Source: Rhodobiaceae bacterium
GTDB taxonomy: Bacteria; Pseudomonadota; Alphaproteobacteria; Rhizobiales; TMED25
Assembly: GCA_018651345.1 (NCBI GenBank)
Contig: JABIEF010000073.1
Span: forward strand, 1-64,000
Length of the DNA: 64,000 nt
Direction: 5' to 3'
Positions 32,871 to 56,744 of the stretch are shown piece after piece (position 1 is the stretch's first letter; every line of letters starts with the position of its first letter). The position numbers and the translations under genes are program-made. Below the pieces are notes generated by a model, which searched no databases, had not been told where the DNA came from, and saw only the letters and a program-made list of their open reading frames with translations.

Positions 32871-35630
32871 TTATTCAGCTAAGCTAATTTTAGCAGCTGA
32901 GAATTTAAATTCAGGTATTTTTGCTGCAGGATCAAGCCTGGAACTTGTTAGCACATTGGCGGCTGCTTCTGTATAACAAAATGGAACAAACACTACTCCC
33001 TCCGGAACATCAGGGTCTTGCCTTGCATTCATTATAATTTTACCTCGACGCGTTGATATCGTAACTTTGTTACCTGGATATATATTAAATTTTTCCATAT
33101 CATACTTATTTAAACAAATAATAGGATCCGGTTCAATAGAATTTAATATGCTTGCCCTTCTAGTCATTGCCCCAGTATGCCAATGCTCTAGAAGCCGTCC
33201 AGTCGTTAGTACCATTGGATAGTCCTGATCAGGAGTCTCAGCTGGAGGAACTATGGATGTGGGGACTATTAATGCTCTACCATCTTTTGTAGGAAATTTA
33301 TCACCAAATAATATATCTTCACCATCGCTATCTGGAGATAGACATGGATATGTAACAGATTCTTCTATAACCAACCTTTCCCAAGTAATATTATCCAGAG
33401 AGCCCATAATTTCAGACATTTCTTTAAAAATATCTTTTGGGTGAGTATACTTCCAATCAAGTCCTATATGCCTTGCCAACTCAGTTATTATATACCAATC
33501 TTCCTTTGCATTAGCTGGCGGCTTAACAACCTGCCTACCAATTTGAATTTGTCTATTCGTATTAGTATAAGTTCCCCATTTTTCTGCATGAGTTGAAGCT
33601 GGAAAAATAACATCTGCATTCCAAGCAGTCTCAGTAAGAAATATTTCTTGAACAACAAGGAAATCAAGAGCAGCGATTGCTTTACGAGTATGCACTGTAT
33701 CCGGATCTGACATTGCCGGGTTTTCACCTAGAATAAACATTGCTTTTATATTAGAGGCATGAATTTCATTAATAATTTCAACTGCAGTAAGACCAGATTC
33801 ATTACTTAAATCTTTACCCCAAAATTCTTGGTACATTTTTCTAACCAATTCATCTTGAACAGAGTTGTAGTCAGGATATACCATTGGTATGAGTCCAGCA
33901 TCTGAAGCCCCTTGTACATTATTTTGTCCACGCAAAGGATGAAGACCTGTACCATCTTTACCAATATGTCCTGATATTAAAGCTAATGAGATCAAGCATC
34001 TAGCATTTTCAGTTCCGTGAATATGCTGTGAAATTCCCATACCCCAAAAGATAATTGATTTATCTGATTTAGCATATAACCTTGCTATATCTATGATTAC
34101 AGATGCTTTTATACCGCATATTTTTTCCATATTCTTAGGTGAAAAATCTTTTGTCTCTTCAACAAGATTGTCAAATCCTATTGTTCTATTTTTTACGAAA
34201 TTAGTATCGTATAATTTTTCTTTAATAATTGTATGAATCATAGCATTTAGCAATGCTAAATCTTGCCCAGGTTTAAATTGAATGATATGTTCAGCATATT
34301 TTGCTAAACCTTGTTTTTGTCCCCTTGGATCAATCAATATTAATTTTGAACCCTTTTTTATAGCATTTTTTATATACGTAGAAGCAACGGGGTGATTTTC
34401 TGAAGGCCTTGCCCCAATAACAATAATACAATCTGATTTGAGTGCATCAGTAAATGGAGCTGTTACAGCTGCAGAATTCAGAGATTCCATTAAAGCAAAA
34501 ACAGAAGAGGCGTGACAAAGGCGAGTGCAGTGGTCTACATTATTCGATACAAAGCCTTGCCGAATTAATTTTTGGAATAAATAAGCTTCTTCATTCGAAC
34601 ATTTTGCAGAGCCAAATCCAGCAATACTTTTGCCGCCATATTGATCAGATATTTTCTTTAAATTTTTAGCAGCTAAACTTAGAGCTTCTTCCCATGAGGC
34701 TTCGCGGAAATAATCTTTTATATTAGAATTATCTATCTTCAAATCAAAACTCTTAGTATTGCTATCTATTCTTATTAAAGGTGATAATAACCTGTCTGGA
34801 TGAGATATATAATCAAAACCAAATCTACCCTTTACGCATAAACGACTTTCATTTGATGGGCCATCTCTTCCATCAATTGATATTATTTTGTTACCCTTTA
34901 CCTTAACGTTTGTTTGACAACCAACTCCACAAAAAGGACACAAAGTATCTACGCTTCTATCTGGATAATGCTCCCTAACATTTGATTTGTTTAGTAAATT
35001 TGATTCCATTAATGCGCCAGTAGGGCAAACTTGAACACATTCTCCACATGAAACACATGTGGATTCACCTAATTCACTATCTAAATCAAATACAATTTTT
35101 GACTTACTTCCTCTGTAAGCCATACCAATAACATCATTCACCTGAACCTCTCTACAAGCCTGTACACACAAATTACAATTGATACAAGAATCGAGATTGA
35201 CTGTAATTGCTTGGTGTGAATTATCAACAACAGGCTTGGGCGTAGTCGGGAATCTAGAGCTTACATTACCATTAATTGCAGATGCCCATTTTAATAAATT
35301 TGACTGAAGATCGTGAGCTGATGAATTTTTAGGTTGGTCTGTCATTAGTAATTCAAAGACCATACTTCTTGCTTTCTTAGACCTGGCAGAATTAGTATCA
35401 ATTTCCATGCCCTCAGCTGGCTTTCTAATGCATGAGGCTACAAGATTTCTTTCACCTTTTATTTCAACCATGCAGGCTCTGCAATTACCATCTGCTTCGT
35501 ATCCAGATTGCGTTGAGTAACATAAATGAGGTATATCAATATCCATCCTTTTAGATATCTCCCAAATAGATTCATCCTTAGAAGCGGTTACCTCTTGATT
35601 ATTTATTTTAAATTTTACGTACTTATTGAT
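32871..35630 (-). CDS. fdhA: NAD-dependent formate dehydrogenase, molybdopterin (alpha) subunit; proposed ATC start
   Basis: 2Fe-2S/4Fe-4S N-terminus, 'CVSCGECVQVCPTGAL', 'TLCPFCGVGCQTNVKV', 'DHCTRLCHASSVFALM' (Cys-type), 'LRGQNNVQGASDAG', 'GRLLEHWHTGAMTRRA'. Track start is the internal Met at 35546; the frame is open to 35633 and the upstream 28 residues (INKYVKFKINNQEVTASKDESIWEISKR) look like the native N-terminus. Confidence 0.9.
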   Translation of the reverse strand: MNKYVKFKINNQEVTASKDESIWEISKRMDIDIPHLCYSTQSGYEADGNCRACMVEIKGERNLVASCIRKPAEGMEIDTNSARSKKARSMVFELLMTDQPKNSSAHDLQSNLLKWASAINGNVSSRFPTTPKPVVDNSHQAITVNLDSCINCNLCVQACREVQVNDVIGMAYRGSKSKIVFDLDSELGESTCVSCGECVQVCPTGALMESNLLNKSNVREHYPDRSVDTLCPFCGVGCQTNVKVKGNKIISIDGRDGPSNESRLCVKGRFGFDYISHPDRLLSPLIRIDSNTKSFDLKIDNSNIKDYFREASWEEALSLAAKNLKKISDQYGGKSIAGFGSAKCSNEEAYLFQKLIRQGFVSNNVDHCTRLCHASSVFALMESLNSAAVTAPFTDALKSDCIIVIGARPSENHPVASTYIKNAIKKGSKLILIDPRGQKQGLAKYAEHIIQFKPGQDLALLNAMIHTIIKEKLYDTNFVKNRTIGFDNLVEETKDFSPKNMEKICGIKASVIIDIARLYAKSDKSIIFWGMGISQHIHGTENARCLISLALISGHIGKDGTGLHPLRGQNNVQGASDAGLIPMVYPDYNSVQDELVRKMYQEFWGKDLSNESGLTAVEIINEIHASNIKAMFILGENPAMSDPDTVHTRKAIAALDFLVVQEIFLTETAWNADVIFPASTHAEKWGTYTNTNRQIQIGRQVVKPPANAKEDWYIITELARHIGLDWKYTHPKDIFKEMSEIMGSLDNITWERLVIEESVTYPCLSPDSDGEDILFGDKFPTKDGRALIVPTSIVPPAETPDQDYPMVLTTGRLLEHWHTGAMTRRASILNSIEPDPIICLNKYDMEKFNIYPGNKVTISTRRGKIIMNARQDPDVPEGVVFVPFCYTEAAANVLTSSRLDPAAKIPEFKFSAAKISLAE

Positions 35631-54832: not shown

Positions 54833-56284
54833 ATGAGTAAGAATGTTGTGAATAATAGGGAGGGTTATGCGTACCCTGATCAAAACATAATGAATTTATT
54901 TTGTGGAATAGTGGGCGATTCAAATGTTTTATTAGATGAAAATGATATGCAATCATTTCTATCGGAGCCAAGGAATTTATATAAGGCAAAAGCGGCATGC
55001 GTAATTAAGCCAAGTTCAGTATTAGAGATTAGTAACATACTAAAAATAGCAAACGATAATAATATTGCAATAGTCCCCCAAGGTGGCAATACCGGATTAG
55101 TTGGCGGACAAGTGCCCTACGATAAAGGCAATGAAGTCATTTTGTCGCTTTCCAGGTTAAATAAATTAAGAGCGATTGATATAAGTACAAATTCTATAAC
55201 AATAGAAGCCGGCATGACCTTGGATAAAGTACAAAAATTAGCAGATGAAAACGATAGGTTATTCCCCCTAAGTCTAGGATCAGAAGGTTCCTGTCAAATT
55301 GGTGGCAATCTTGCAACTAATGCAGGTGGTACAGCGGTTATTGAATACGGTAACACCAGAGAGCTAACTTTAGGGCTAGAGGTAGTGTTAGCAGACGGGA
55401 AGATATTAAATGGATTAAAAAGTTTAAGGAAAGATAATACTGGCTATGATCTTAAAAATATATTTATAGGAAGCGAAGGAACTCTTGGTATAATTACAGC
55501 TGCAACGATGAAATTATTTCCAAAACCTAAAAACATAATTAGTACTTTTGTATCTTTAAGTAACTTAAATGCAGCCGTTGATTTATTAAATTTTCTACGC
55601 GAAGAAACTATGAATAAGATCACGAGTTTTGAATTAATGCCAAAGATTGGAATTGAATTAGTTCAAAAGCATAAACCAAATATAAATATTCCGTTAAAAG
55701 ATCTCAATGATTGGTCTGCTTTAATTGAATTTTCCTCCAATAGCACACTAGATTCAGCAAGAGATGATTTAGAGAATACTCTTTTTAAAGCTATCAATGA
55801 AAACTATATAACCGATTGTATAATTGCAGAATCCATATCTCAATCAATGGATTTTTGGAGAATAAGACATTTTATTGTTGAAGTTCAAGCTTATGAAGGC
55901 GGGAGCATTAAACATGATATTTCTATTCCAATTGCAAAAATACCTCAATTTATTAATGAAGCAAATAATATTGCAGAATCTGTATACCCCTCATCTCGCC
56001 CTATTCCCTTTGGGCACATTGGAGATGGTAATATTCATTATAATATTACCCAACCAATAAATGAAAATACAGATAAATTCATGGAAAAATGGCATGATAT
56101 GTCTAGTAAAGTGCATGATCTAGTTGTTAAGCTAAATGGTTCTATTAGCGCGGAGCATGGAATTGGTAGAATGAAAAGGGATGAATTATATGAAAGATCT
56201 GATTCTACCAAAAATTATATAATGAAGAATATAAAGAATGCATTAGATGCAAGAGGAATCCTTAATCCAGGAAAAGTATTGTAA
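54833..56284 (+). CDS. FAD-binding oxidase (GlcD / D-2-hydroxyacid dehydrogenase family)
   Basis: 'IVPQGGNTGLVGGQVP', 'GGNLATNAGGTAVIEYGNTRELTLGLEVVLADG', 'GSEGTLGIITAATMKL', 'HIGDGNIHYN', 'SAEHGIGRMKRDEL'. Confidence 0.92.
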   Translation: MSKNVVNNREGYAYPDQNIMNLFCGIVGDSNVLLDENDMQSFLSEPRNLYKAKAACVIKPSSVLEISNILKIANDNNIAIVPQGGNTGLVGGQVPYDKGNEVILSLSRLNKLRAIDISTNSITIEAGMTLDKVQKLADENDRLFPLSLGSEGSCQIGGNLATNAGGTAVIEYGNTRELTLGLEVVLADGKILNGLKSLRKDNTGYDLKNIFIGSEGTLGIITAATMKLFPKPKNIISTFVSLSNLNAAVDLLNFLREETMNKITSFELMPKIGIELVQKHKPNINIPLKDLNDWSALIEFSSNSTLDSARDDLENTLFKAINENYITDCIIAESISQSMDFWRIRHFIVEVQAYEGGSIKHDISIPIAKIPQFINEANNIAESVYPSSRPIPFGHIGDGNIHYNITQPINENTDKFMEKWHDMSSKVHDLVVKLNGSISAEHGIGRMKRDELYERSDSTKNYIMKNIKNALDARGILNPGKVL

Positions 56285-56330
56285 TCAATTCATATAAATA
56301 AGTTACCTGAACATATTTGGAGGTATAAAA

Positions 56331-56744
56331 ATTAATAGAGATTATCCTAAAAATCCATTATTTGGAGTTAGCTCATTAATTATTAGAGAAAGCAAAGTCC
56401 TTGTGGTAAAAAGATCCAATAAACCTGAAATATGGAGTCTTCCCGGAGGGCTAGTGGAGCTCGGTGAAACACAACAAAATGCTGCCATAAGAGAAGTTCA
56501 AGAAGAAACAAATGCAAATATAAGGATTATTAAATTCCTAGAGAATTTAGATATAATTATAAAAGATGAAAAGAGCCAAATAAAGAGACATTATATTTTG
56601 GCCGTTTTTGGCGGAGAATATATAAATGGTAACATTATCGCGGGGGACGATGCGATAGATGCTAGGTGGCTTGCAATTCAGGATATAAGCAGCATTAACA
56701 TGACCACTGGAACGGCTCAATTTATAATGAAATACAGAAAATAA
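56331..56744 (+). CDS. NUDIX hydrolase; proposed ATT start
   Basis: Nudix box 'GGLVELGETQQNAAIREVQEETN'. Track start GTG 56403 cuts into the first beta strand; the in-frame upstream sequence I-NRDYPKNPLFGVSSLIIRESKVL matches a normal NUDIX N-terminus and begins at ATT 56331, 7 nt after GGAGG (56319-56323). Confidence 0.87.
   Translation: MNRDYPKNPLFGVSSLIIRESKVLVVKRSNKPEIWSLPGGLVELGETQQNAAIREVQEETNANIRIIKFLENLDIIIKDEKSQIKRHYILAVFGGEYINGNIIAGDDAIDARWLAIQDISSINMTTGTAQFIMKYRK

Follow-up and report, generated by a model that had tools for sequence, protein, structure and literature searches.

The small NUDIX hydrolase gene in the window (the whole 64,000-nucleotide stretch analysed here, from a marine alphaproteobacterium) raises the question of which codon starts its translation. 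Gene callers usually accept only ATG, GTG and TTG, so that genes started at AUU, AUA or AUC (AUH starts) are truncated or lost, and in this gene the ORF caller picked the GTG at 56403. The first-pass annotation had objected that this GTG cuts into the first strand of the fold, and the domain comparison bore this out: the GTG-started form of 113 residues loses residues 1–24 and matches PF00293 with 61.0 bits, 9.8 bits below the 70.8 bits (cut-off, 21.1) of a protein started at the ATT at 56331, and the profile begins at position 19 instead of 6. The match of the ATT-started protein spans residues 13–132, and alignments with several solved NUDIX structures begin at its residues 8–13.

The NUDIX start region in two congeners

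In-frame codon reading indicated that the frame continues from 56298, behind the TAA at 56295–56297, as ISYLNIFGGIK and then INRDYPKNPLFGV / INRDYPKNPLFGVSSLIIRESKVLVVKRS in the ORF translation, and that ATG, GTG and TTG are all absent between this TAA and GTG 56403, as had been claimed. Within this interval GGAGG (56319–56323) is followed by a 7-nt spacer (56324–56330) and the ATT, again in agreement with the annotation. CTG 56307 had been named the only other near-cognate codon, which proved incorrect, because the frame also holds ATA at 56298, 56313 and 56325 and ATT at 56379 and 56382; its lack of a comparable Shine–Dalgarno sequence (SD) did hold, and SD inspection found no properly spaced SD for the near-cognate codons upstream of 56331, ATA 56325 being only 1 nt from GGAGG. 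The features of the locus are collected in Table 1.

Table 1. Positions of the features discussed, in window coordinates
Feature	Position	Strand	Remarks
NUDIX hydrolase CDS from proposed ATT	56331..56744	+	137 codons plus stop; PF00293; full-length identity to congener
Proposed AUU initiation codon	56331..56333	+	No in-frame ATG/GTG/TTG before 56403; ATT kept in congener (L002/L060)
Shine–Dalgarno GGAGGT	56319..56324	+	GGAGG core, 7-nt spacer to ATT; in congener GGAG, 8-nt spacer
In-frame TAA closing upstream frame	56295..56297	+	Congener frame likewise closed, 9 codons before ATT
GTG picked by ORF caller, rejected as main start	56403..56405	+	Without SD; deletes residues 1–24
CTG near-cognate codon, rejected	56307..56309	+	CTC in congener; 5′ of SD
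Upstream gene, FAD-linked oxidase	54833..56284	+	PF02913 and PF01565; 46 nt before ATT
Formate dehydrogenase alpha, N-terminal 2Fe-2S domain, AUH candidate	32871..35630	-	Proposed ATC 35630-35628; GGAG 35641-35638, 7 nt

When the region 56285–56402 was shuffled with its dinucleotides preserved, GGAGG with an in-frame ATT at 4–9 nt occurred in 0.6% of the shuffles and GGAGG with any of ATT, ATA, ATC or CTG in 1.0%; with GGAG the values were 2.6% and 6.8%, respectively. SDs are sparse in the window's genome, and that of the NUDIX gene is among its strongest; of 515 conserved ATG starts, 11.1% had an SD ≥5 nt long in both species and 22.9% one of ≥4 nt. RNA folding of the NUDIX start region was no better than that of shuffles (z 0.10). 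Across the SD (window 56304–56325), UACCU can pair with AGGUA, and in the congener UCUC/GAGA could form in the same place, which may be chance.

The window's genome (G000; 79 contigs totalling 1.53 Mb, with a G+C content of 31% over the part read) was compared with the one congener in the genome collection, the MAG FRAM18_bin081 (G001; 'uncultured Rhizobiales', CAJIYR010000008.1), two genomes of the genus being thus covered. The two NUDIX proteins share 82% amino-acid identity across the full 137 codons, and the congener carries ATT AAT AGA GAT TAT CCT identical letter for letter, with GGAG 8 nt before the ATT; it too lacks a standard start ahead of the GTG. There CTG 56307 is CTC and ATA 56325 is TAT; ATA 56313 and GTG 56403 are kept. 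From the upstream stop codon to the ATT, 15 of 47 aligned bases differ in addition to a 2-nt gap, compared with 9 of 72 from the ATT to the GTG and 56 of 339 beyond the GTG. This jump in divergence 5′ of the ATT places the beginning of the coding-like stretch at or near the ATT. Changes in the 24 N-terminal codons fall 3, 2 and 4 on the three codon positions, without a strong bias to the third, with 4 synonymous and 4 non-synonymous; these substitutions are too few to prove coding, and the coding signal in this segment rests on wider homology.

Conservation of the N-terminus and weighing of the start codons

The NUDIX gene was found in all 14 family genomes, and the aligned protein starts of the family homologues read I-[NK]-R-[DE]-Y-P-x-x-P. 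All 14 members and several relatives of the order have R-x-[YF]-P-x-x-P with the first strand after it, so that the alignment of homologous N-termini, which the first-pass annotation had named as a check, did not find the segment lacking; together with conservation in the congener, these N-termini support ATT as the probable start of the gene. The further expectation, that relatives would keep the ATT and have no in-frame ATG, held for the congener. In the sister genus there is an in-frame ATG: three genomes read ATG ATT AAA AGA GAT TAC, with the ATG one codon before the aligned ATT, and others have the ATG about five codons upstream of it. In this genus the codon before the ATT is AAA (G000) or AAG (congener), and the ATG position of the sister genus therefore fits a moved start codon. 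One sister-genus genome (G004) has AGGAG-N7-ATT ATA AAA AGA, the alternative being a TTG that lacks an SD and lies another five codons upstream, and its NUDIX gene may itself use the ATT start. The aligned codons show that AUU does not extend through the whole family in this gene, the sister genus having mostly ATG. Gene order also varies: several sister-genus NUDIX genes lie directly after the apparent end of a Sua5-type gene, and here the FAD oxidase and 46 nt precede the gene.

Aligned to GX5EX7REUXEEXGU, the predicted Nudix box reads G-LVELG-E-TQQNAAI-REVQEET-N-A, which agrees at the acidic and Arg positions; in place of the late glycine this genus has Asn (window 56448–56516, REVQEETN). 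AlphaFold on the two-sequence alignment gave a mean pLDDT of 35 and was uninformative.

Considering that a standard start is absent, that an SD is present, that the ATT is kept in the congener, that the N-terminal protein segment is conserved and that AUH starts recur in the lineage (see below), the NUDIX gene is very probably translated from AUU 56331. Translation from GTG 56403, yielding a shortened NUDIX domain, is unlikely: although this is a standard start codon kept in the congener, whose 113-residue product still scores 61 bits to PF00293, it has no SD, it would cost the protein a segment that is conserved in family and order and holds part of the first strand, and it would give no account of why GGAGG/GGAG and the N-terminal protein are conserved. 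A start at some other near-cognate codon is rather less likely again, for the chief candidate, ATA 56313, occurs in both congeners but lies 5′ of the SD, has none of its own and is joined to the ATT by codons that differ at the protein level (FGGIK vs SGDYK); CTG 56307 and ATA 56325 are not conserved. Starts at GTG 56403, at CTG 56307 and at ATA 56298, 56313 and 56325 were accordingly rejected by congener alignment and SD inspection.

The ATT might also be the relic of a lost start codon in a decaying gene with little or no product, given that AUU initiation is weak in other bacteria (PMC13068326). Against this, the frame is full-length and without stops at 82% amino-acid identity, the predicted catalytic motif and the SD are kept in both species, and that two diverged species have the identical ATT speaks against a fresh loss; we consider decay very improbable, slightly more so than a second near-cognate start. 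An ATG turned into ATT by sequencing or assembly error is conceivable in a fragmented assembly of 79 contigs, but the same codon in the independent MAG makes this the least probable of the explanations and close to negligible. Read as AUU-initiated, the NUDIX gene has no AUG, GUG or UUG for its conserved N-terminus, a normally spaced SD and an AUU kept in a relative, which supports its placement as a further case of a known kind, the naturally AUU-initiated bacterial genes exemplified by infC and pcnB.

Other AUH starts in the lineage

A paired scan was performed on 667 gene pairs, covering 862 kb of G000 (of 1.53 Mb) and 1.31 Mb of G001, in which genes were taken as candidates if the conserved N-terminus lay ahead of all standard starts shared by the pair, and were then inspected. 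Many flagged ORFs (e.g. a1842, a674, a645 and a2301) were antisense artefacts of real genes and were discarded on inspection. Besides the NUDIX gene, those without a usable standard start among the 667 pairs were infC, erpA, formate dehydrogenase alpha, an NDUFA9-like epimerase, ispE and rsmB, and AUH starts make up ~1% of the compared genes. In G000 each of the seven AUH-start genes has an SD of 4 nt or more; in G001 the epimerase is without one of this length. SD enrichment in the wider AUH list is suggestive only, because candidates were chosen partly by SD proximity.

The strongest single AUH case, to judge by its aligned start codons, is the NDUFA9-like NAD epimerase, whose aligned start codon is ATT, ATA or ATC in 13 of the 13 family genomes with a readable start and ATG in none (0/13; L203–L214, L216). 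ATT is found in G000, G001, G005, G008, G010 and G011, ATA in G002, G003, G006, G007, G012 and G013, and ATC in G004. A stop codon directly precedes the ATT or ATC in G010 and G004, with GGAG 6 nt away, which makes an upstream start impossible in these two genomes. Further downstream, either there is no standard codon or, as in most genomes, the first ones fall within or after the nucleotide-binding motif GGxGFxGR; G007 has a GTG just before this motif. In G006 one TTG lies 39 codons upstream in open frame. That the third base varies and is never G is as would be expected if AUG were disfavoured, with kinship limiting the number of independent changes.

The infC gene has an ATA start behind AGGAGG-N6 in both congeners (L053, L055), and ATA was also found in the other family genomes read; IF3 would thus itself be AUH-initiated here. 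The erpA gene, identified by an NCBIfam equivalog match above cut-off, has ATT behind AGGAG-N9 in both congeners (L181, L182; G000:C43 2184–1852, minus strand), and two sister-genus relatives read ATT ATG at the matching place. Formate dehydrogenase alpha matches TIGR01591 and Fer2_4, starting at ORF residue 5, and its first standard codon, an ATG, stands 28 codons downstream inside Fer2_4, an arrangement shared by the congener. Just outside the window, ispE (L189, L190; G000:C30 71497–70622, minus strand) has no ATG, GTG or TTG before codon 42, or before codon 118 in the congener, and probably starts at an ATT behind AAGGA or at a nearby ATC or ATA; in the sister genus it has ATG. For rsmB (G000:C26 17857–16487, minus strand), with no standard start before codon 72, an ATC or CTG behind GGAG is the likely start, as judged mainly from the NusB domain. 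A tentative addition is hflX, whose ATG in G000 (C29 242–1609, plus strand) aligns with an ATT in G001 (C10 17274, minus strand), where no in-frame standard start occurs for 44 codons and no clear SD is found.

Probable initiation at AUU and its implications

By analogy with known systems, the strong SD (GGAGG, 7 nt) would set the AUU in the P site, where the ordinary formyl-methionyl initiator tRNA (anticodon CAU) would pair with its first two bases and mismatch at the third, the strong SD compensating for this mismatch. The NUDIX protein would then begin (fM)NRDYPKNPLFGVSSLII, the ATT-form N-terminus being (M)NRDYPKNPLFGVSSLIIR. A search of the congener for a special initiator tRNA yielded nothing but three ordinary Met(CAU) tRNAs. 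IF3 proofreading would disfavour the AUU, and output would be low and would respond to the amount of IF3, as with infC and pcnB in E. coli; for the NUDIX gene, fMet decoding, low output and IF3 sensitivity are all inferred.

E. coli infC and pcnB, the latter cited as the second chromosomal example of AUU (PMC13009471), likewise have an AUU start on a full-length conserved gene, and standard fMet initiation at a low, IF3-sensitive level would be expected here as there; the gene is however a different one, and its IF3 sensitivity is proposed by analogy. In S. aureus, AUU and AUA starts with extended SD were described for cvfC1 (AUU), ccpN and citZ (AUA) and infC (AUA), with an output of roughly 10% of AUG in poor medium; in rich medium one gene reached as much as 30% (PMC13009471). 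The NUDIX gene resembles cvfC1, ccpN and citZ in its conserved AUU/AUA-type start with a strong SD outside infC, but the S. aureus starts, in a distant phylum, were mapped by ribosome profiling and reporters. IF3 was shown experimentally to repress the GTC start of Streptomyces sigR, and E. coli infC is autoregulated by IF3 (PMC5472188). For E. coli infC fidelity mutants a 3–15 fold rise is reported (PMC5472188), and AUU output of the NUDIX gene would be expected to rise in such a mutant if it is IF3-gated. Like the NUDIX gene, sigR is a non-infC gene whose non-standard start was missed by annotation, although its start is GTC and not ATT. Listeria has ATT in infC and ATC in rnhC, and with rsbW ATT/ATA mutants and reporters the order was ATG > ATA > ATT, ATT being weak but active (PMC13068326). 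A small set of conserved genes with ATT or ATC starts is thus common to Listeria and this lineage, but non-canonical starts make up <0.3% of core genes there (PMC13068326) and ~1% of compared genes here, by differing methods.

The recurrence of AUH starts in the lineage is the unexpected part of these results and more interesting than the single NUDIX gene. In the literature retrieved, conserved AUU, AUA or AUC starts of genes other than infC are few. It is possible, though on balance doubtful, that this set of genes is under selection to avoid AUG and that an AUA-initiated IF3 sets their translation together, family-wide; if this is true, the NDUFA9-like epimerase would be the clearest case of such AUG-avoiding, IF3-set genes. 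A lineage with ~1% AUH starts, including those of the core genes erpA and ispE, would offer a natural test system for asking if AUH starts persist as tolerated relics in A+T-rich genomes or form a shared layer of regulation under IF3 control.
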